NCBI RefSeq assembly: GCF_014203955.1
Contig: NZ_JACHKA010000001.1
Coordinates: 3,193,001 to 3,257,000, forward strand
DNA: 64,000 nucleotides
Direction of reading: 5' to 3'
From: Sphingobium lignivorans
GTDB lineage: Bacteria > Pseudomonadota > Alphaproteobacteria > Sphingomonadales > Sphingomonadaceae
Shown here piece by piece: positions 7,430-63,044 of the stretch. Below the pieces are notes generated by a model, which was not told the DNA's origin, ran no database searches, and saw only the letters and a list, made by a program, of their open reading frames with translations. Position 1 is the stretch's first letter, and each line of letters starts with the position of its first letter. The position numbers and the translations under genes were made by a program.

Positions 7430-8144
7430 ATGACTGCCCAGACTATCATTCTCGTCGAAGACGACCCGGCCCTGCGCACGCTGATTGCGCGGCTCCTGCA
7501 GGAAAACGGCTTCATGGTGCGGACCGCCGCGACGGCGCCGGAAATGTGGGTCGCGCTGGAAAACGGCCCCGAGGCGGACCTGATCATCCTGGATATCATG
7601 CTGCCCGGCACCAACGGCATCGACTTGTGCCGCAAGATCCGCAAGAGCAGCGACGTGCCCATCATCTTCATCAGCGCGAAAGGCAGCGACGAGGACCGCA
7701 TCCTGGGACTCGAGCTCGGCGCCGACGACTTCCTGTCCAAGCCTTTCCAGCCGCGCGAACTCATCGCGCGCACTCGGGCGATCCTGCGCCGGGGGCCGCG
7801 CACGGACCGGGACGATTCGCGCGGGCGCAACGAATTCCAGTTCAACGGCTGGACCGTCTTCTTCTCCCGCCGCGAGTTGCGCTCGCCAACGGGCGCAGTG
7901 GTCGATCTGACGGGTGCGGAGTTCGATCTCCTCGCCACATTCGTGTCGCAGCCCATGCGCGTCATCGGCCCGCGAGCGATTGATCGAATTGTCGCGCACG
8001 CGGCTGAGCGACAGTTCGGACCGCAGCATAGACGTGCTGGTCAGCCGGCTGAGACGCAAGCTCGCGGCGGCCGGGGGCGATCCGCCCATCGTGACCATCC
8101 GCGGCGTCGGCTACATGTTCAGCGCGCAGGTCACGCCGGCTTGA
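7430..8144 (+). pseudogene. OmpR-family response regulator with a +1 frameshift
   Basis: The receiver domain starts at ATG 7430 with ILVEDDPALR; the phosphoacceptor Asp is in LIILDIMLPG (about residue 55) and the Lys in FLSKPFQP. The winged-helix DNA-binding domain begins normally up to about residue 180 (PMRVIG). One extra C in the CCC run at 7969-7971 then shifts the frame. The rest of the winged helix is intact in the neighbouring frame (RERLIELSRTRL, RSIDVLVSRLRRKL, TIRGVGYMF) and stops at 8144. Removing one base gives a normal 237-residue regulator. As written, the frame reads straight on into the kinase, giving a receiver-kinase fusion. Sequencing error is possible. Confidence 0.85.
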
Positions 8145-15630: not shown

Positions 15631-17217
15631 TCAGGCACGCACGATCACGGCTTCGTGAGGGGCCACGGCAAAACGCGCCAATGTGTTCGCGCTCCCACCC
15701 GGCTTCTGGACCTGGTCGATCACCTTGACGTCCGTGCGCCACAGCGCCGGTTCGATATCGAACCGGTCATAGCCGCGCTGGTGATTGGCAAGAGCGAGAT
15801 TGGGGTTGCGGCCATCCAGATAGGCCTGGATGGCAGGCGTTACCGGAGCGCCATCGCCCTCGGAGGAAATCGAGCTGGCCATGAATTCGACAGCGGCGGC
15901 TGGTCCATCGGGCTCATCGTCCCGCATGGGCACGGTCCCGACATTGTGCATATGCGCGTCTCCCGTGGCGACAATGACATTGGTGAGGCCGGCTTGGGCG
16001 ATCTCGCTCACCAGCCGCGCGCGCGCTTGCGGGTAACCGCTCCACGTATCGGTCGGAGTGGGTAGCGCTTCGCCCGCCGGCCCGCGCCGGACCAGCGGCA
16101 TCATGCGCACCTGTTGCGCGATCAGGTTCCAGCGGGCCGTGCTGCCGCGCAGGCCCTCGGCCAGCCAGGCCTCCTGGGCAGGGCCGATCATCGTCGAGTC
16201 CGGGATCTCGTCGGTGCGGCAATGATGGTCGTCCGATCCCATGCAGAGCTGGTCGGTCCGGTGGCTGCGCGTGTCGAGCACATGGATGCGGCAGAGGGCA
16301 CCATAATCCAGCCGCCGAAACATGGCGAGACCGTCGGCATGGGGGAACTGCGCGCGCCGTACCGGCACATGTTCGTACCAGGCCTGCATCGCGGCGAAGC
16401 GGCGTAGCAGGAAAGCCTCGGGCGGCGTTCCGTCCTGATCGAATGCCTCGACCCAATTATTATCCACTTCATGATCGTCGAACGACATGATGAAGGCCGC
16501 CGCCGCATGGGCGGCCTGCAGATCGGGGTCGCTCTTGTAGAGCGCATAGCGGCGGCGATAATCGTCGAGGCTGTATGTTTCGCCGCCCAGATGAGCGCGG
16601 CTGACCACTTTGCCCAAGGCATCGCAGATGACCTTCTTCGAGGGGCCGCCATCCTCATAGATATAGTCGCCATAATGGAACACGGCGTCGATGTCGGGTT
16701 CTTCGGAAATATGGCGCCAGGCGCTATACCAGCCATGCTGATAATTCTGGCAGCCCGCCACGATCAGGCGCATCTGTTCCGGCAGATCGCCCGGGGCGGG
16801 CGCCGTGCGCGCCATCCCGACCGGGCTTTGGGCAACCCCACCGATGGCAAAGCGATACCAATAGGGTCGGCGCGGACGCAGTCCCCCCACTTCCATATGG
16901 ATGCTGTGCGCCAGTTCCGGTCTTGCCAGCGTATCGCCCTTCCGGACCACGCGCCGGAAGGCCGGGTCCTCCGCCACTTCCCATTGCAGCGCGACGGCCG
17001 CCTTGGGCATGCCGCCATTCTCCTCGAGCGGTCGAGGCGCGAGCCTCGTCCAGATGACGAAGCCGTCCGGCCAGGGATCGCCAGCCGCTACCCCCAGCGC
17101 GAACGGATCGTCGGGAAAACGCGGGGCCGCCCAGAGCCTGTCCACGCGTCCCAGAGCGCCGGTCAGGGCCAGCCCGCCCGTCGCTGCCAGAAAATGCCGG
17201 CGATCGCATGTCAGCAT
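15631..17217 (-). CDS. PhoD-family alkaline phosphatase/phosphodiesterase
   Basis: A 528-residue exported metallophosphatase. It begins with a Tat-like signal (RRHFLAATGGLALTGALG). A PhoD N-terminal domain follows (FALGVAAGDPWPDGFVIWTR), then the catalytic domain: VAGCQNYQHGWYSAW, AVFHYGDYIYE, FIMSFDDHEVDNNW and VATGDAHMHN provide the Asp/His/Asn metal ligands. PhoD enzymes release phosphate from mono- and diesters in the periplasm or outside. The gene begins 13 bp after the stop of a TonB-dependent receptor, so receptor and phosphatase form one unit, downstream of a FecI/FecR-type pair. Confidence 0.9.
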   Translation of the reverse strand: MLTCDRRHFLAATGGLALTGALGRVDRLWAAPRFPDDPFALGVAAGDPWPDGFVIWTRLAPRPLEENGGMPKAAVALQWEVAEDPAFRRVVRKGDTLARPELAHSIHMEVGGLRPRRPYWYRFAIGGVAQSPVGMARTAPAPGDLPEQMRLIVAGCQNYQHGWYSAWRHISEEPDIDAVFHYGDYIYEDGGPSKKVICDALGKVVSRAHLGGETYSLDDYRRRYALYKSDPDLQAAHAAAAFIMSFDDHEVDNNWVEAFDQDGTPPEAFLLRRFAAMQAWYEHVPVRRAQFPHADGLAMFRRLDYGALCRIHVLDTRSHRTDQLCMGSDDHHCRTDEIPDSTMIGPAQEAWLAEGLRGSTARWNLIAQQVRMMPLVRRGPAGEALPTPTDTWSGYPQARARLVSEIAQAGLTNVIVATGDAHMHNVGTVPMRDDEPDGPAAAVEFMASSISSEGDGAPVTPAIQAYLDGRNPNLALANHQRGYDRFDIEPALWRTDVKVIDQVQKPGGSANTLARFAVAPHEAVIVRA

Positions 17218-17229
17218 GGCTGGCCTCGC

Positions 17230-20200
17230 TCAGAAGGTTGCCCGGATGCCGAAGGTCGCGCTCCGCCCGTAAGCCCGATAGTCCCCGGCATGGTCGCCGA
17301 CCGGACCGCCCGGCGTGTCGACGCCGGGCAGCATGATGAGCGTCTTCTCGTTGAGCAGGTTGCGCATGGACATGAACAGTCGCACGCGGGGGCTCAGCGA
17401 ATAGCTGCCCGAGAAGTTCATGTCGGTGCGCGGCCGGATGTAGGAGCCGGTCGCAGCGCTGTTGAGCTTCCGGCCGGTCCAGAGGCTGTTCAGGTTGAAG
17501 GCAATGGGCCCCTTCTTGTAGGCCAGCGACGCGGAGATCAGATGCCGTGCCGAAAGGGCGATGGGGACTTCCGGCGCGGTATAGGTGTAAGAGCCCCGCA
17601 CCGTCAGTCCGCTCAGCAGGCCCGGCAGATAATCGAGCGAATGATTCAGCTCGAGCTCCAGACCGCGAATGTTGATGGCGTCGCCCGATACCGTCCGCGT
17701 CGTGCGGAAAATGTATCCGGCATAGTCGGTACCGGTATAGCCGAACTCCTCCGCCGTCATTTCCTCGGTCTGGAACTGGCCCTTCACACGGTTCTGGAAA
17801 TAGTTGATGGCGACGAGACCCACCGGCTCGAAATATTTGACGATCCGCGCGGAAAAATTGTCGGATACCTCCGGTTTCAGGCCGGGATTGGGCGCGGTCA
17901 CCGTCAGCGTGGCGTCGTTCACCGACCAGACGCCCGCCAATATGTTGACTTCGGGCCGCCGGATCGTGCGGCTGTAGCCGAGCTGGATGTCCAGGCTGTC
18001 CGTGGGCGAAAATTTGAGCGACGCGCTCGGGAAGAAATAGTCGTAGCTTCCTTTCCGGTCGATCAGCGGATTGCTTTCATATTGATATTTGATGCCTTCC
18101 AGCGTCGAGGCACGCCCCGTGCTCGCCGTGACCGCATAGCCAGCGGCGCGAACGGCGTCGGCGGACAGGGCATCGAACTCGCGCGCCCGGGTCCGCGTCT
18201 GCTCCCAGCGCAGGCCGGCCCGGAACTTCAGGCGGGCGGTAATGTCGGCCGTGCCCATGAAATAGGCGGCATTGGTGTCTTCCTCGAAATGCCGGCGGTT
18301 CGCGATATAGGCTGTGTAGTAGTTCGCGGCAGTCAGCGTATGCTCGAACAGGTCGGGGTTCGAGAGGAACATCTGCCCGATCTTCTGGTTGCTGGGCATG
18401 TAAAGCCGGCTGCTGCCGGACAGTGAGGTGATGTCGATATCGAGTTGATCGAAGGACAGTTCGTTGGCGCTCTGGTTCAATGCCAGGAAGGCAGCCGGGC
18501 TGAGCGGCCCCGTGTAGCGATATTGGCTGGCGGCACGCTCATTGGCGAAGTCATAGACGGCGCGCTGGAATTTCACGCCTGTCTTGAACAGGATCGGCAA
18601 GGCTTCGAAAGGCGAGTGGAACGAGAGGTTCAGCCCGCCGCCCCATAATTCGGTGCGCGCCCAGCGTCCGTCCTGCGTGTTGAGCACGATCGAGGTCGGG
18701 CTCGTATAGCTGGCCGCATCGCTCCAGTCGGCACCGGTCAGCTGGGTGATCGCCCAGTCCTGCGTGTCCAGGCCCGAGCGATGCACGGAGAAGCTGCCCC
18801 GCGCGTTGGGAGCGGTGGCGAGACTGAAGATGGCGCCCTCATTGCCCAGCGGATCATAATTGCTGGTCGAGTTGGAGTAGGAGAAATTGCCGTCGAGCGT
18901 GAACCGCTCGTGCTTATATTCGAAGCTCGGGAGCAGCGTCAGGCCTTTGCCACGCTTGGAAATGGCGTTGGACACCGCCTCGACGCTGGCCGTGCTGGAC
19001 TTGGTCGTGAAATCCACGGCGGGATCGCCGATCACACCGGCCGCCCGCGCGCCGGTGATGAAGCTGTAGGCGCGCTGTCCGGACCAGAGGTGGGACCGGT
19101 TGTAGATGCCGGCCATGGAAAGTGTCAGCGCGTCCGTCGCACGGAAGTCCAGCGTCAGCGACGAGGCGAAGCGCGAGACCTCCTGCGCGCGCATATGCGC
19201 GTAGATACTCGTCAGCGCCAATGGCTCGGGGCTGGCGGCGGTGGGCACGTAGCTGCGCGGATAATAGACCTGCTCCATCTCCGTATAGGTCTTGGACTGG
19301 CTGATGCTGGCCACCACGCCCAGGCGATTGCCGAAGAAGACATCGGAATATTCAAGTTGCCCATTGGGTCGAAAGCGCCCTTCGTGCTTGCCTTCGCCCG
19401 GCCCCGTCACGCGATCGCGCCACATGTCGTCGTGAGTGTAGCCGCTCAGCTGGACGTTGATCCGTCGCCCCTTGCGATCGAAAGCGCGCTTGGTCCGCAG
19501 ATTGATGGTGCCGGCCGGGGCATTGGCGTCCACGTCGGCGCTGATCGTCTTGGAAATCTCGATCGAATCCACACTGCTCAGCGAGACCTGCTCGAAGCTG
19601 AAGGAGCGCGAAGTGGTCGAGCCGTCATTCGCGTCCGCTGCGGCCATGCGCACCCCGTTCACGGTGATGGCGGTGTATTCGGACGGCAGGCCGCGCAGGC
19701 GGACATAGCGCACCGTATCATCACCTTCGCCAGCCGTGTCGACGCCGGGCATGAACTTGATGAACTCGCCGACATTGCCTTCGGCGATATCGCCGAAGGA
19801 TTCCGAGGAAAGACTGTTGGTGATGTTCATCGACTTGCGCTGGCTCATGATCGCGCGCGCATCGCCCTCTCGCACGGTGCCGGTCACCACGATGTCATTT
19901 CCGGACGACGCTTGCGTCACGCCGGTCTGCTGGAGATCGAAATTCAGCGTGGTCGTGCCGCCTGCGGTGATTTCGACCGTCTGGGAAATCTCCTCATAGC
20001 CCGTGTAGCTGACGGTGATCTGCGCGGTGCCTGCAGGCAGATCGGCGATGCGATAGGCCCCTTCGTTATCTACGGTCGTGACATGCCGGTCACCTTCTGC
20101 AGTCGTCAGCCGGATGATGGCGTCACGCATATAGTTGCCGGTGACGGGGTTCAGGACCTGGCCGGTGACGCTGCCTTTCTCCCGAACGGCCCGCACGGTG

Positions 20201-20499
20201 GACTGGAGCATGATGAGCTTTCCGTTGTCCGACACGATGCGCAGTGGCGTGCCTTCGAGCAGGCGGCGAAGCGCGACGCGAATATCCAGCGAGCCGATGA
20301 CCGCCTTTGTGCGAACGCCCTGGAGGTCGCCGGCCGGCGCGATGATCTGGATCTGCGCCTGCCGCGCGAACTCGGGAATGCCGCTGACAGCAGGCTGCTC
20401 TGAAACATTGAAGCTGCGCGTCTGTGCCTGCGCTGGCGTGGCAGTCGCAAGCACGGCAAGAGCCACGCCGCCCGTCAGGACGGCTGCACGAATAGTCAT
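17230..20499 (-). CDS. TonB-dependent receptor with STN signalling domain
   Basis: A 1089-residue outer-membrane receptor. In order: signal peptide (to about residue 25, TPAQAQ), STN domain (about 40-110, AVIGSLDIRVALRRLLEGTP), carboxypeptidase-regulatory-like repeat (about 112-185, GSVTGQVLNPVTG), plug (about 200-330), and a long beta-barrel ending in an aromatic F (SATFGIRATF). STN domains of transducer-type receptors contact FecR-type anti-sigma factors across the periplasm, and such a pair lies directly upstream. The ligand is unknown; the phosphatase gene 13 bp downstream suggests a phosphorylated compound. Confidence 0.9.
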   Translation of the reverse strand: MTIRAAVLTGGVALAVLATATPAQAQTRSFNVSEQPAVSGIPEFARQAQIQIIAPAGDLQGVRTKAVIGSLDIRVALRRLLEGTPLRIVSDNGKLIMLQSTVRAVREKGSVTGQVLNPVTGNYMRDAIIRLTTAEGDRHVTTVDNEGAYRIADLPAGTAQITVSYTGYEEISQTVEITAGGTTTLNFDLQQTGVTQASSGNDIVVTGTVREGDARAIMSQRKSMNITNSLSSESFGDIAEGNVGEFIKFMPGVDTAGEGDDTVRYVRLRGLPSEYTAITVNGVRMAAADANDGSTTSRSFSFEQVSLSSVDSIEISKTISADVDANAPAGTINLRTKRAFDRKGRRINVQLSGYTHDDMWRDRVTGPGEGKHEGRFRPNGQLEYSDVFFGNRLGVVASISQSKTYTEMEQVYYPRSYVPTAASPEPLALTSIYAHMRAQEVSRFASSLTLDFRATDALTLSMAGIYNRSHLWSGQRAYSFITGARAAGVIGDPAVDFTTKSSTASVEAVSNAISKRGKGLTLLPSFEYKHERFTLDGNFSYSNSTSNYDPLGNEGAIFSLATAPNARGSFSVHRSGLDTQDWAITQLTGADWSDAASYTSPTSIVLNTQDGRWARTELWGGGLNLSFHSPFEALPILFKTGVKFQRAVYDFANERAASQYRYTGPLSPAAFLALNQSANELSFDQLDIDITSLSGSSRLYMPSNQKIGQMFLSNPDLFEHTLTAANYYTAYIANRRHFEEDTNAAYFMGTADITARLKFRAGLRWEQTRTRAREFDALSADAVRAAGYAVTASTGRASTLEGIKYQYESNPLIDRKGSYDYFFPSASLKFSPTDSLDIQLGYSRTIRRPEVNILAGVWSVNDATLTVTAPNPGLKPEVSDNFSARIVKYFEPVGLVAINYFQNRVKGQFQTEEMTAEEFGYTGTDYAGYIFRTTRTVSGDAINIRGLELELNHSLDYLPGLLSGLTVRGSYTYTAPEVPIALSARHLISASLAYKKGPIAFNLNSLWTGRKLNSAATGSYIRPRTDMNFSGSYSLSPRVRLFMSMRNLLNEKTLIMLPGVDTPGGPVGDHAGDYRAYGRSATFGIRATF

Positions 20500-20589
20500 T
20501 CCCTACCCCCGATTTACGATGATGCAGTGATCGGGGTGGTTGACGTTCGGCAGAGCGACTTCCGCCACTTGCCATCAGATTATTTTTGA

Positions 20590-21579
20590 TCAGGCGGCCG
20601 GACGGCTCAAAACGATGCTGCTGCCCTGGCGGACCAGATGGGCGCCGAACAGGCTTGCAATAGCCTTGCTGAACCCGACCGGATCATTGGCCGCGAACAA
20701 GCCCGTGACCTGCTCCTGCCGCAAAGCCTCGTCGCGAATTTCGATTGATGGATCGCCATAGCGTGCGAAGGCCTCCGCTGCCTGTGCGAGCGTCTCGCCC
20801 TGAAAGGCGATCTTGCCGTCGCGCCAGGCAAGATCGCGAATGATCTCCTCCGCCGAAATCGGGACGGGGCGTGGCCGGCCCGGGGAGTCCAACGCCATAT
20901 CCAGACGGGTTCCCGCCCGCAGCAGGACATTGTGGCCGGCAGCAGCGGTAGCGCTCACCTGCCCCTCGTCGACGAGAATGCGGGCCGGCCGATCTTCCAG
21001 CAGTCGCACGCAAAAACTGGCGCCCCCGGTGCTGATGCGATCCTCACCGGCCTCGACCGTGAAGGGACGTTTCGCATCGGGCGCGACGGTGAAGAAGGCT
21101 TCTCCCTTGACCAGATCGACACTCCGCACGCCGCCGGCATAGCGCACGGAAACGCGCGTATCGGTGTTGAGGAAGATGCTCGACCCGTCTTCGAGGCGCA
21201 CGAGCCGCCGTTCACCGCGCTCCGTTGCATAAGCTTGCGGCATGAGCAGGCCGAAACCGAGCCCGCCGACAATCACAGCGGCAGCCATGCCGCTGCCCGC
21301 CATCAGCAGACGCCGCCGCGAGACTTGAGGGGCGGAGATATCCGCCTTGGCCTCGATCTGGAAATCTGCCGGATCATAACGATTGCCCAGAGCGCCGGCG
21401 GCCTCGCTGCGCAGGAACACCGCCTGCGCTCTCAGGAGCGCGCCGGGCCGGCGCACGTCTCCCATCAACCAATGCTGAAAAGCCGCCTCTTCCTCTTGAG
21501 TCAGATCCGCCCGATCACGACGAGCCACCCAGTCAGCCGCCGCCTCATCAATGCTCTGACTGGACTCGGACTTGATCAT
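20590..21579 (-). CDS. FecR-family anti-sigma factor
   Basis: A 329-residue inner-membrane regulator. The N-terminal cytoplasmic DUF4880-type helix region (IDEAAADWVARRDRADLTQE, EAAFQHWL) is followed by one membrane segment (LLMAGSGMAAAVIVGGLGFG) and the periplasmic FecR domain (RLEDGSSIFLNTDTRVSVRY, GEAFFTVAPDAKRPFTVEAG), with a C-terminal STN-binding part. The ATG at 21579 is preferred because it puts the cytoplasmic domain at the usual distance; it overlaps the end of the sigma gene by 32 bp. It should sequester the sigma factor until the STN receptor signals. Confidence 0.88.
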   Translation of the reverse strand: MIKSESSQSIDEAAADWVARRDRADLTQEEEAAFQHWLMGDVRRPGALLRAQAVFLRSEAAGALGNRYDPADFQIEAKADISAPQVSRRRLLMAGSGMAAAVIVGGLGFGLLMPQAYATERGERRLVRLEDGSSIFLNTDTRVSVRYAGGVRSVDLVKGEAFFTVAPDAKRPFTVEAGEDRISTGGASFCVRLLEDRPARILVDEGQVSATAAAGHNVLLRAGTRLDMALDSPGRPRPVPISAEEIIRDLAWRDGKIAFQGETLAQAAEAFARYGDPSIEIRDEALRQEQVTGLFAANDPVGFSKAIASLFGAHLVRQGSSIVLSRPAA

Positions 21580-22150
21580 GCAGGGTCGGGCTCTCCGGTT
21601 TCGCGATCTTAGAGGATCGGGCATTGGTCTTTCCGCCATTCCCGAACCAATCCGTCAAGAAACGAATTCCCCGCGATATATGTTTCTCGACCGTATTCTC
21701 GGACAAGTTGAGCTCTTGCGCGACTTCACGCTGGGAAAGTCCGTTCACCCGCCGGAGCGTGAACGCCTTGCGCGTCTGCGGCGGCATGGCGGCGATGGCG
21801 CAGGCAAGCTGGCGCAATTCGTCACGATCGATGGCCTGCCGTTCGGGCGACGGCGCGTCGTCCTCCCAATCGCCCGTATTGAGATCCTCCAGCGCCTGGA
21901 AGGACACGATGCGCGCCCGGCGAATATGGCGAATGACCAGCGAATGCGCAATCTGGAACAGATAGGCCCGGGGAAAGCGGATATCGGCGACGCTTTCGCG
22001 GCATGCCAGGGTGCTGTAGGTTTCCTGCACGATATCGTCGACATCGATGCCGATCGACCTTTTCGAGGACAGCCACGCCTTGAGCGCCGGCTCATGAGGC
22101 AGGACATGCCGCATGAACCACGATGTTCTGTCTTCATCGATCGTGATCAC
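21548..22150 (-). CDS. FecI-type ECF sigma factor
   Basis: A 200-residue sigma-70 family ECF protein starting at GTG 22150. The sigma2 region has IDVDDIVQETYSTLA and FPRAYLFQIAHSLVIRHIRR; the sigma4 region has MPPQTRKAFTLRRVNGLSQR and EVAQELNLSENTVEKHISRG. It is followed by an overlapping FecR-type gene, an STN receptor and PhoD, the standard cell-surface signalling order. A Pho-box-like site lies 45 bp upstream (22195-22212), suggesting PhoB starts the cascade under phosphate limitation. Confidence 0.9.
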   Translation of the reverse strand: MITIDEDRTSWFMRHVLPHEPALKAWLSSKRSIGIDVDDIVQETYSTLACRESVADIRFPRAYLFQIAHSLVIRHIRRARIVSFQALEDLNTGDWEDDAPSPERQAIDRDELRQLACAIAAMPPQTRKAFTLRRVNGLSQREVAQELNLSENTVEKHISRGIRFLTDWFGNGGKTNARSSKIAKPESPTLHDQVRVQSEH

Positions 22151-22194
22151 GACGGCCCCATTCCCGAAAATCTGGGGCTCGCTAATGCGCTATT

Positions 22195-22212
22195 CTGACA
22201 GTCTGATGACGG
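22195..22212 (-). promoter_or_regulatory. candidate Pho box upstream of the FecI-type sigma gene
   Basis: On the minus strand: CCGTCAT, 4-base spacer CAGA, CTGTCAG. Each heptamer matches the PhoB consensus CTGTCAT at 6 of 7 positions with the correct 11-bp period. The site points towards the sigma gene and ends 45 bp before its GTG, nearly the same distance as the longer array upstream of the second TonB receptor-PhoD unit. It lies in the divergent gap shared with the MarR-type gene. Two units only, so less certain than the other site. Confidence 0.55.
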
Positions 22213-58743: not shown

Positions 58744-60427
58744 CTACCCTCCCTCGGCGCTTGTCGAAGCCCGCTCCAGCGTCCGGGGTTGCGCCGCTGC
58801 CGCGACTTCGAAGCGCGCCAGCAGACGCGCTTCATAATCCCGCGCAAAGATGGTCGACATTGCGACATAATCGGCCACTGCCGTCTCGCGCGTCAGCCGG
58901 AGCAGGATGTAACCCTTGGCCCGCTGGTCGCAGAAGGCGACTTCCGGACTGGACCGCGCGAGGAAGTCGCCGAGTGGCAGTTGCGGGATCGCGTCGCCCA
59001 CGGAGGGGCTGCTGATGCCGCTGGTTCCGAACTCCACCGCGACCGGCTTTCCCTGCCGATCGGCAAGAGCGTTCGCCCAGAAGGCATGGCTGTCGCCCGA
59101 GAGTATCAGCGGCTGTGATCCGGCACGCCGGAAGCTGTCATAGAGCCGCTCCCGCGCCCCGGGATAGCCGTCCCACGCGTCGAGATTGAACGGCAGTCCG
59201 GCCCGATAGCCTGCCTGTGCGGCCTCCACCTGCGCGCGCGTGCCCGCGTCCAGTCCCCCGATGGCACCCGCTGCACGCTCCGCCCCGAGCAGGGCCGCAA
59301 GGTCCGGACCGTTCACACGGGCCATCACCACCTGATTGCCGATCAGTTGCCAGGGCACGCCTGCCGCCACCGATGCCGCGAGTTCCCGTTCGAGCCAGGC
59401 GCGCTGGGGCTCGCCAAGCAATTCGCGATCCGGACGGTTGCGCTCGGCAAGCACAGCGGCGATGTCTTCGGCAGCCGGCGTCGCGCCCTTGAAACCGGCC
59501 TGTTCCGATCGCGCCAGCAAGCGCGTCTCGACCATCGCGAGAGTCGCCAGATCACCGAAGGCGAAACTGCGATTGATCGCGTCCCATGGCGCCCCGGGGG
59601 CAGGATCGCGGATCGGCATCCATTCGAAATAGGCCTGCATGGCAGCGGCCTTGCGGTCCGCCCACTGGCCCTCGCGCTCCGGCTGATGATTCTCCGCACC
59701 GTGCAGCCACGCATCATTGGCGGTCTCATGATCGTCCCACACACAGATGAAGGCCGCGCGGGCATGAGCCGCCTGGAGCGCCGGGTCGCTCTTGTACTGC
59801 GCGTGGCGCATGCGATAGTCGGCCAGCGTCACGATCTCGTGCGGCGGTTCGACGGAGCGGCCGATCTTGCTGCCGATCGCGGCGCCATAACCCTCCGCGC
59901 CATATTCATAGATATAGTCGCCCAGATGGATGACCGCATCCAGCCGATCGAGCCGCGCGACCGAATCCCAGGCATTGAAGAACCCGCCGGGAAAGAGCTG
60001 GCAGCTCGCGACAGCGAGAACGAGGTCCGCCGTCTCGCCTGCCGGCAATGTGCGGAACCGGCCCACTGGCGAACGCGTGCCGTCCGCCAGCTCGAACCAG
60101 TAGACATAGTCCCGCCCCGCCTTGAGGCGGCGCGGCTGGACCTTCACCGTGAAATCGCGCGCGGGCCTTGCTGCGGCGGACCCGTGCTCGATCGGTTTTC
60201 CCTCCGGCGTGGCGGCGACGAACCACCGGACGGGGACGGCCCCGACATGATCCGGATCGCCCGGCGTCACGCGCGTCCACAGCACTGCCCCGTCTCGCGA
60301 GGGATCGCCGCTGGCGACGCCGTGGCGGAAGGATGCGTTCCCGGGGCCCTGCGCGCGCGCGGGCCGCGACGGGGAGGATAGCGCCCGAGCCGAACAGGCC
60401 GAGCGCGCGGCGACGATCGACCTTCAC
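58744..60427 (-). pseudogene. second PhoD-family phosphatase, frameshifted near the N-terminus
   Basis: Starts at GTG 60427, overlapping the receptor stop (GTGA), with a Tat signal (DRRRALGLFGSGAILPVAAR). One extra base in the run at 60343-60346 (GGGG on the plus strand) shifts the frame. The next frame continues at once with NASFRHGVASGDPSRDGAVL, the PhoD N-domain, and the full catalytic domain: VASCQLFPGGFFNAWDS, VIHLGDYIYEYGAEG, CVWDDHETANDAW and ILSGDSHAFWANAL. Without the extra base it is a normal 560-residue enzyme. Translation from internal ATG 60285 would give 513 residues with no export signal. Sequencing error is quite possible. Confidence 0.85.
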
Positions 60428-62961
60428 CGGGCACCTCCGAAGCGGAAGCCAAGCGCAACGCCATAGAAGCGCGGCGCGCCCGCGATGAAGGTCGGCAGGC
60501 CGAGGCTGTCCCCCGTATTACCCGCGTCCATGATGTATGCCTTGTCGAAGAGATTCTCCACGAAGGCTTCGACCCGCCAGCCGCCATCCCGCGATTCATA
60601 GCCGAGCCGTGCGTTCACGAGCGCATAGCCGTCCTGATATTCGTCCTGGATATTGTCGGCGACCAGGGCCGCGGGGGGCTGCTGGAGGTCCGGCCGGTCA
60701 TTGTCGTCATCGAAGAATATCTTCGATTGCACCGTCACGCTCGGGGAGAAGCTGACCCGTCCTGGTCCGGCCGGCACGGAGACGATCGCGCCAAGCGATG
60801 CACTGTGATCCGGATTGAGGCGGAACCGGTTGTCTTCCCGCACGCCCGTCTTGAACCGTCCATGGCTGTAGGCATAAGTCGCGAACAGGCTGAGCACGTC
60901 GTTGGGCATCCAGCGGACCTGCCCCTCGAAGCCGTAGCTTTCCGCCCTGCCCGCATTGGTGGTGATGAACTGCGTGCCCTGCTGCTCGGTGGTCTGGAAA
61001 TTCTCATACTGGTAGAAGAACACCGCGCCGTCCACGAAGAGGCTCCGGTCGAGCAACGCCGCTTTGGCGCCAAGCTCGAAGCTGTCCACCGTCTCGGACG
61101 GAAGAACCGGGAAGGTCACCGCGCCGAATGGTGCGCCGGGTCCCCGGGGCGAAAGGATCTCGGGCCGGCGCCCGCGCGCATAGGTCGCATAGATGCTGCT
61201 ATCGTCGTTGGGCAGGTAGCGGGCGGTCAGGCGCCAGGAAAATCCGCCATTCTTGTGCGTCGCTTCCACCATCTCGCCATTGCCGGCCGTGGGCTGGGCG
61301 CCCAGGCCGAAGAGCGGCACCGGATAGGCTGCCGAAGGCGGGATGGTCGCCGCCCCGGGCACGGCCAGCGCCTGCAGCAGGGCTGTGCGCGTGGCCGCCG
61401 GCTGCGACAGCGCACCAATGAAGCCGCCCACGATGGAACGGCCATTCAGCACGGACGCGGTATAACCGCTGCGCTTGTCGTCATGCGTGTAGCGCAGACC
61501 CGCGCCTAGCTCGAAGCGTTCGGAGACCCGCATGGTCACGTCGCCGAACAGATCGAAGGCATTGGTGCGAGCAGTGTTCGTGCTGGTTTCCAGATGAGCG
61601 CTCTTGAGATTGGCGGCAATCGCCTGCGCCTGCGCGGAAGAGAGCGCGACGCCATAAGCGCCCGCCACGCCCTGGAGCAGCATGCCGGTGAAGGCGGGAT
61701 TGGCGAACAGGGCAGCCGGCGCCGGGTCGGTTGCAGCCCTGCCCGGAATCGCGCCGCCCCCGTTCAGCGCGCCCGCGAGCCGTGCCAGCACCATGCGCTC
61801 GTCGAACTGGGCCGGTCCGCGCTGCGAGCCATCCTCATGGAAATAGCTTGCACCCACGAAGGCCGTGAGCGGTCCTTGCGCGAAGGCAAGCCGCAGTTCC
61901 TGGCTGAACTGCTTGCCCTCGGCGCCTTCCGCGGCGGTCAGGATCGGAAGCGAAAGGCCGTCCGCGTCGAAAATCTCGAGGGACTCGAACCGCCGATAGG
62001 CCGTGATGGACGTGAGCGTGAAGCGGTCGTCCAGTTCCAGATTGGCAAGGCCGGTTACGCTCCACACCTCCCGGTCGAGCCCGAGGGGCTTGCCGCCCTC
62101 GAATCCTCCTGCTCCCGCGACCAGCGCCGCGCCGCTGTTGCGTCCACGGTCGCCGATCACCGCGCCGGTGGCCGGGTCCGTCGGATTATAGGCGATGGAC
62201 TTGAAGGACGTCCCGGCCGGACGGTCCTTCTGATAATTGCCGATGAGATCGAACGTCAGCTTGCCGGCTTCCGCGTGCAGGGCGCCGCGAATGGCCTTGG
62301 TGTCCGCTGAATTGAAGTCCTCGCCACCCAGCAGATTCTCGACATAGCCGTCGCGCTGGCGGACACGGCCGGCGATACGGATCGCGACATTGTCGCCGAT
62401 CGGCGCATTGACCATCGCCTCGCCGATGAAGCTCTCGTAATTGCCGTAGGACAGGGCGGCGGCGCCCTCGATACGGCCGAGTTTCGCCTTGTTCTGGATG
62501 ATGTTGACGGCGCCGGTCAGCGCGCCGCGGCCGTAAAGCGTCGATTGCGGACCTTTGGCCACCTCGACGCGCTCGATGTCGAACAGCTCGACATAGGAAC
62601 CGCGCGATTTCGATATGGAGACGCCGTCCTGGAACACGGAGACGCGCGGCTCGTTTGTCGCCGCGCCACTATCGGACGTGATGCCGCGCATGACGAAGCC
62701 GGGATTGTTGGGCGACTGGTTCTGCACCACGAAGCCGGGCACGAAGCGCGACAGCTTGTCCAGCTCCTGAAGGCCGAACCGGTCCAGTTCGTCCGCGCCG
62801 ATGGCAGTGAGCGCCATGGGAACGGCGATCGGATCCTGCTCGCGCAGCTGCGCGGTAACGATGATCATGTCGGCATCGGCTGGCTCAGCCTCCGCACGGG
62901 CCTGCGTGGCTACAAGTGTCGAGAGGCTGGCGCCAGCCAGCGCGAGAATCCGGAAGTTCAT
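60424..62961 (-). CDS. TonB-dependent receptor of the second PhoD unit
   Basis: An 845-residue outer-membrane receptor: signal peptide (ILALAGASLSTLVATQARAE), TonB-box-like MIIVTAQLREQDPIAVPMAL, plug (about 45-160; VVQNQSPNNPGFVMRGITSD, VEVAKGPQSTLYGRGALTGA), barrel ending in FYGVALGFRFGGAR. No STN domain, in contrast to the receptor at 17230. Its stop overlaps the PhoD start. The four-unit Pho box 44 bp upstream suggests induction by phosphate starvation, and a phosphorylated ligand or one released by PhoD. The ligand itself is unknown. Confidence 0.88.
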   Translation of the reverse strand: MNFRILALAGASLSTLVATQARAEAEPADADMIIVTAQLREQDPIAVPMALTAIGADELDRFGLQELDKLSRFVPGFVVQNQSPNNPGFVMRGITSDSGAATNEPRVSVFQDGVSISKSRGSYVELFDIERVEVAKGPQSTLYGRGALTGAVNIIQNKAKLGRIEGAAALSYGNYESFIGEAMVNAPIGDNVAIRIAGRVRQRDGYVENLLGGEDFNSADTKAIRGALHAEAGKLTFDLIGNYQKDRPAGTSFKSIAYNPTDPATGAVIGDRGRNSGAALVAGAGGFEGGKPLGLDREVWSVTGLANLELDDRFTLTSITAYRRFESLEIFDADGLSLPILTAAEGAEGKQFSQELRLAFAQGPLTAFVGASYFHEDGSQRGPAQFDERMVLARLAGALNGGGAIPGRAATDPAPAALFANPAFTGMLLQGVAGAYGVALSSAQAQAIAANLKSAHLETSTNTARTNAFDLFGDVTMRVSERFELGAGLRYTHDDKRSGYTASVLNGRSIVGGFIGALSQPAATRTALLQALAVPGAATIPPSAAYPVPLFGLGAQPTAGNGEMVEATHKNGGFSWRLTARYLPNDDSSIYATYARGRRPEILSPRGPGAPFGAVTFPVLPSETVDSFELGAKAALLDRSLFVDGAVFFYQYENFQTTEQQGTQFITTNAGRAESYGFEGQVRWMPNDVLSLFATYAYSHGRFKTGVREDNRFRLNPDHSASLGAIVSVPAGPGRVSFSPSVTVQSKIFFDDDNDRPDLQQPPAALVADNIQDEYQDGYALVNARLGYESRDGGWRVEAFVENLFDKAYIMDAGNTGDSLGLPTFIAGAPRFYGVALGFRFGGAR

Positions 62962-63004
62962 GCGACTTGTCCCCTTTCTTTGGCAGGGGCGCTAGGCGCG
63001 ATCC

Positions 63005-63044
63005 GTGAAACATCGGTGACAGGTGCGAGACACGCAAATGACAG
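63005..63044 (-). promoter_or_regulatory. four-unit Pho box array
   Basis: On the minus strand, in order: CTGTCAT, spacer TTGC, GTGTCTC, spacer GCAC, CTGTCAC, spacer CGAT, GTTTCAC. All four heptamers follow the 11-bp period of tandem PhoB sites; the first is a perfect match to CTGTCAT, the third 6 of 7, the second and fourth weaker. The array ends 44 bp before the ATG of the TonB receptor-PhoD unit and points towards it. Confidence 0.75.

Follow-up and report, generated by a model that had tools for sequence, protein, structure and literature searches.

A probable Pho-type promoter before a FecI-like sigma factor gene in a TonB receptor-PhoD cluster of Sphingobium lignivorans

The window, that is, the whole 64,000-nucleotide stretch of Sphingobium lignivorans contig NZ_JACHKA010000001.1 that was analyzed, carries genes for an ECF sigma factor, a FecR protein, a TonB receptor and PhoD on the same strand (Table 1). 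A preliminary description of the stretch had called this cluster, and profile matches agree with it. The sigma factor matches sigma-70 regions 2 and 4 over the Pfam cut-offs and the TIGR02937 superfamily model over its cut-off, and FecI models match it below their own cut-offs. In the FecR protein, PF04773 scores 66.2 bits and PF16220 25.1 bits against a cut-off of 25. The receptor had been described as an STN receptor; it is a TonB receptor, but the STN domain is a weak match that falls under the Pfam cut-off (E=4.8e-4, 20.3 bits against 28.4). Its N-terminus aligned to the FecA model over positions 6-117 (residues 2-112). The gene order of the cluster is conserved in the orthologs that we compared (loci L012-L017, L123, L124 and L252), which come from the genus and from other genera.

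Table 1. Features of the sigma-FecR-receptor-PhoD cluster and of the comparison promoter, in window coordinates.
Feature	Position	Strand	Basis or remark
Pho-type promoter, CCGTCAT-CAGA-CTGTCAG-N9-TTAG (tandem PhoB half-sites and -10-like element)	22182..22212	-	Pattern searches, models
Pho box of the preliminary description	22195..22212	-	Only the 3' half-site, 22195-22201, kept in orthologs
FecI-like ECF sigma factor gene, 200 aa, GTG start	21548..22150	-	ORF, domain matches
FecR-like anti-sigma factor gene (DUF4880 and FecR domains)	20590..21639	-	Domain matches
FecR-receptor gap with conserved element GGCGGAA...TC-A	20500..20589	-	Probable promoter for ECF sigma; no convincing Pho box
TonB-dependent receptor gene, 1089 aa, with plug, barrel, carboxypeptidase-regulatory-like domain and weak STN match	17230..20499	-	Domain matches
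PhoD-like alkaline phosphatase/phosphodiesterase gene	15631..17217	-	12 bases after receptor gene; N-terminal Tat-like DRRHFL motif
Second Pho promoter in the window (tandem array and CTAG), comparison case	62992..63044	-	Before TonB receptor-PhoD pair 62961-58744

The Pho box reported in front of the FecI-type sigma gene is present on the minus strand, as direct repeats of 7 bp set 11 bp apart (CCGTCAT-N4-CTGTCAG, with CAGA as the spacer), each half matching at 6/7 positions. From the site to the GTG we count 44 bases, where 45 had been given. Nine bases downstream of the box there is a -10-like TTAG (22182-22185), a spacing also seen in other Pho-type genes. As had been pointed out, the array near 63005 has the identical orientation, and its distance to the ATG of a TonB receptor gene at 62961 is nearly equal to that of the sigma site. 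This second TonB receptor-PhoD pair, at 58744-63044 on the minus strand with its tandem Pho array and CTAG, has no FecIR pair adjoining it. We also considered the divergent marR gene as the target of the sigma-gene site, which we judge unlikely because the box and the -10 element face the sigma gene.

Members of the PhoB regulon include phoA and pstS in E. coli and phoX, phoD, plcP, btaA and phn in alphaproteobacteria. Like their promoters, the site before the sigma gene consists of tandem half-sites in a 7-4-7 layout that precede a -10 element by about 10 bases; unlike them, the -10 here is CTAG or TTAG, the upstream half-site is often degenerate, and the target is a second regulator.

Pattern searches of the genome, made on one 4.207-Mb contig, indicate how much of this could arise by chance. 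The 18-mer alone gave 5 matches in the window at up to 3 mismatches against 3.2 expected, which is not significant, and 66 matches in the genome at up to 2 mismatches against 29 in the reversed control, which is unconvincing by itself. The site becomes significant because the -10-like TTAG 9 bases downstream is added to the 18-mer: CTGTCAY-N4-CTGTCAY-N9-YTAG with up to 2 mismatches occurs at 4 sites in 4.2 Mb against 0.23 expected from 30 order-2 Markov genomes, a figure that serves as a guide and not as a strict p-value, because the nine-base spacing was first seen in the same data set. That the 18-mer is a chance match, as its frequency taken alone would allow, is therefore very improbable given the rarity of the full architecture, and the 3' half-site and -10 element are moreover kept in orthologs of several genera. 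The four sites precede a TonB receptor-like gene (at 741 kb), phnX (phosphonoacetaldehyde hydrolase; TIGR01422 over cut-off), the sigma gene and the second receptor-PhoD pair of the window. At up to 3 mismatches the pattern gives 12 sites against 4 in reversed controls, among them sites at phoD2 and at a DUF3419 gene that we take to be BtaA-like. Two weaker Pho-type matches with 3 mismatches (L243 and L244; G000:C1 813643 and 895312) precede efflux-adaptor-like and transporter-like genes, and chance matches are expected at 3 mismatches.

The shorter pattern TGTCAYA-N8/9-CTAG taken alone showed no enrichment over the reversed control in seven genomes, and only the genes lying behind its matches made it informative. 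Within the genus, a half-site followed after 8 or 9 bases by YTAG is found upstream of 13 of 26 phoD homologs and of 6 of 30 PlcP-like metallophosphoesterase genes, the other 24 being without it; the PlcP-like label is ours, for a Metallophos-family protein with a glycosyltransferase-like frame after it. The phoX promoters have tandem 11-bp arrays and no CTAG signature, and for this reason they were left out of the matrix training described below. In the host genome, phoX carries CCGTCATGCAACTGTCAT, and Pho boxes are found both at phoX and at a Porin_O_P gene that lies close to the gene for PhoB itself (901642-902313; TIGR02154 at 337.9 bits, over cut-off). The window contains an OmpR/PhoB-type response regulator gene of its own at 7432-8144 on the plus strand, with an apparent frameshift near 7960 that puts the first part of the regulator in frame with the next histidine kinase gene, in one ORF of 747 aa.

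It had been proposed that the site may place an ECF sigma factor under PhoB, and conservation in related genomes had been named as a check. In the orthologous clusters, the 3' half-site and a CTAG, TTAG or CTAC are kept, but the 5' half-site CCGTCAT is not, and in many of them there is only a single clear half-site. The proposed PhoB control of the sigma gene is supported in that its promoter geometry matches that of Pho-type genes in the host and related genomes and its signature is kept in orthologs, though not in the two-sided form first described. A matrix trained on phoD and PlcP-like promoters only, with no sigma gene included, gave p=0.0012 for the window and p<=0.00045 for all of the orthologs, while nine other ECF genes of the host genome had p>=0.018; the test is not fully independent, because the training pattern was picked after the sigma upstream regions had been seen; near-identical loci are non-independent, and two models were tried per region. 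By the matrix, the signature is upstream of every close sigma ortholog tested, including those in other genera, and of 0/9 other host ECF genes. A geometric model of two half-sites plus YTAG scored 16/18 in the window (p=0.0003), a score reached by 0/3000 random regions, with p>=0.44 for the nine other ECF genes. Six further PhoD-linked clusters (L127, L128, L136, L137, L138 and L141) show this promoter geometry too, at a sigma factor identity of only ~30%, with p<=0.002 in one or other model; L133 and L135 were weaker. Of 317 ORF upstream regions in these loci, the only ones with high scores were those of sigma genes, of phoD2, of the window's receptor-PhoD pair and of one 396-aa gene adjoining a sigma gene. 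The last (L072:10855-12042, minus strand) encodes a secreted-looking protein with no Pfam match, and its Pho signature is among the strongest (PWM 22.8).

Another possibility is that a different factor, for example another ECF sigma, uses CTGTCACA-N8-CTAG as its promoter or operator, and that the resemblance to a Pho half-site is convergent. The dominance of one half-site in many orthologs would fit this, as would the TGTCACATTTTTTTCAT elements at PhoD-less FecI homologs. TGTCAC elements stand before several of these (L020, L025, L030 and L039), which means that the half-site also occurs outside phosphate clusters. We nevertheless regard this explanation as decidedly unlikely, given that the signature is found at phoD, PlcP-like, phnX and DUF3419 genes and that tandem 11-bp arrays stop 9 bases before the same YTAG. 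In L020, L023, L024 and L026-L031 a conserved ATCCGCCAT-N-TGTCACATTTTTTTCAT lies upstream of the FecI-homolog sigma gene, and no PhoD was found in those of the clusters that were read at 12 kb.

FecI genes are typically under iron (Fur) control. For the sigma gene here only this family precedent speaks for such control; the best upstream match to the 19-bp Fur consensus is 9/19, inside the shuffled range, and we give the idea very little weight. A Fur box had been named as the alternative to look for, and none above chance was found upstream of the sigma gene with the classical Fur consensus. Comparison of promoter sequences, by contrast, gives good support for control of the sigma gene by PhoB.

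The receptor gene has an upstream element of a different kind, GGCGGAAC...TC-AGC, of which GGCGGAA...TC-A is kept in seven loci. It is the kind expected for a FecI-like sigma. In the 200 bases before the receptor gene there is no convincing Pho signature (window PWM p=0.038, geometric score 11). Autoregulation by the sigma factor was considered and rejected because the conserved receptor-gene element differs from the sigma-gene element. Since the gap before the receptor gene has this different element and no convincing Pho box, the likely order is that PhoB acts on sigma-fecR and the released sigma factor on receptor-phoD.

A cascade from PhoB to an ECF sigma factor is already known in Pseudomonas aeruginosa, and the present cluster shares its upstream logic. 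In the VreA-VreI-VreR system (PUMA3), the ECF sigma and anti-sigma genes lie behind a PhoB-bound pho box and are controlled by phosphate, not by iron and Fur; their operon begins with the gene for the receptor-like VreA, a protein reportedly located in the periplasm with no part in uptake, and the target promoters of the sigma factor are bound by PhoB as well (PMC4971064). Here too a pho box precedes the sigma operon. Unlike in VreAIR, the receptor gene here lies after fecR, has a conserved element of its own in front, and encodes a full-length TonB receptor with plug and barrel, accompanied by PhoD, and it lacks the convincing Pho signature that PhoB binding at sigma-dependent promoters would lead one to look for. 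With the ferric citrate system FecI-FecR-FecA of E. coli the cluster shares the order sigma, anti-sigma, receptor, a GGAA-type element in front of the receptor gene, and a FecR with DUF4880; it differs in that its upstream control resembles a Pho promoter rather than a Fur box, and in that its cargo is a phosphatase. Our literature search turned up no account of this cluster from sphingomonads.

When phosphate is low, phosphorylated PhoB would bind the tandem half-sites and recruit the housekeeping RNA polymerase to the TTAG -10 element, and sigma factor and FecR would then be produced, a dependence to which the promoter and its conservation point. By analogy with FecA, FecR and FecI, FecR would hold the sigma factor until the TonB receptor, with its putative N-terminal signalling domain, is occupied by a ligand that is probably a phosphorylated organic compound. 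The freed sigma factor may then read the separate GGCGGAA...TC-A promoter, as its conservation suggests, and drive the receptor-phoD operon. Low phosphate would thus arm the system and the ligand would fire it, a serial AND gate that we infer because of the FecI/FecR/FecA homology and the distinct promoter-like element that is conserved in front of the receptor gene. With a PhoB promoter at the sigma gene, the receptor and the phosphate-releasing enzyme would therefore probably be made only under phosphate shortage and in the presence of the right nutrient. The gate could be absent and the sigma factor active whenever it is made, in a plain relay from a true PhoB promoter, which the weak STN match would permit. 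We consider this unlikely, since the FecR has both DUF4880 and FecR domains, the FecA model can be aligned to the N-terminal part of the receptor, and the genes stand in the order of a signalling system, an order kept in orthologs. The full reading, with a PhoB-dependent promoter for the sigma/FecR pair, a ligand-fired sigma factor and serial AND logic, is in our view likely to be correct.

We lean, with some reserve, towards the broader view that FecI-FecR-TonB receptor-PhoD systems in the Sphingomonadaceae have repeatedly come under PhoB and form a family of serial phosphate-AND-ligand gates for organic phosphorus compounds. FecI-type receptor signalling has been studied mostly as iron control, and the same module could also serve phosphorus scavenging with substrate sensing. 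A half-site, 9 bases and YTAG is a practical lead for reading sphingomonad Pho regulons, including receptors without an assigned substrate. One scan of genome contigs with the receptor as query yielded nothing beyond the same-species genome SYK-6 and two loci that were partial or distant. Near-identical clusters occur in genomes of two genera, L124 (in G151) and L071 (in G043), which suggests recent transfer; the match to the receptor gene in G151 is interrupted by ~2.4 kb.
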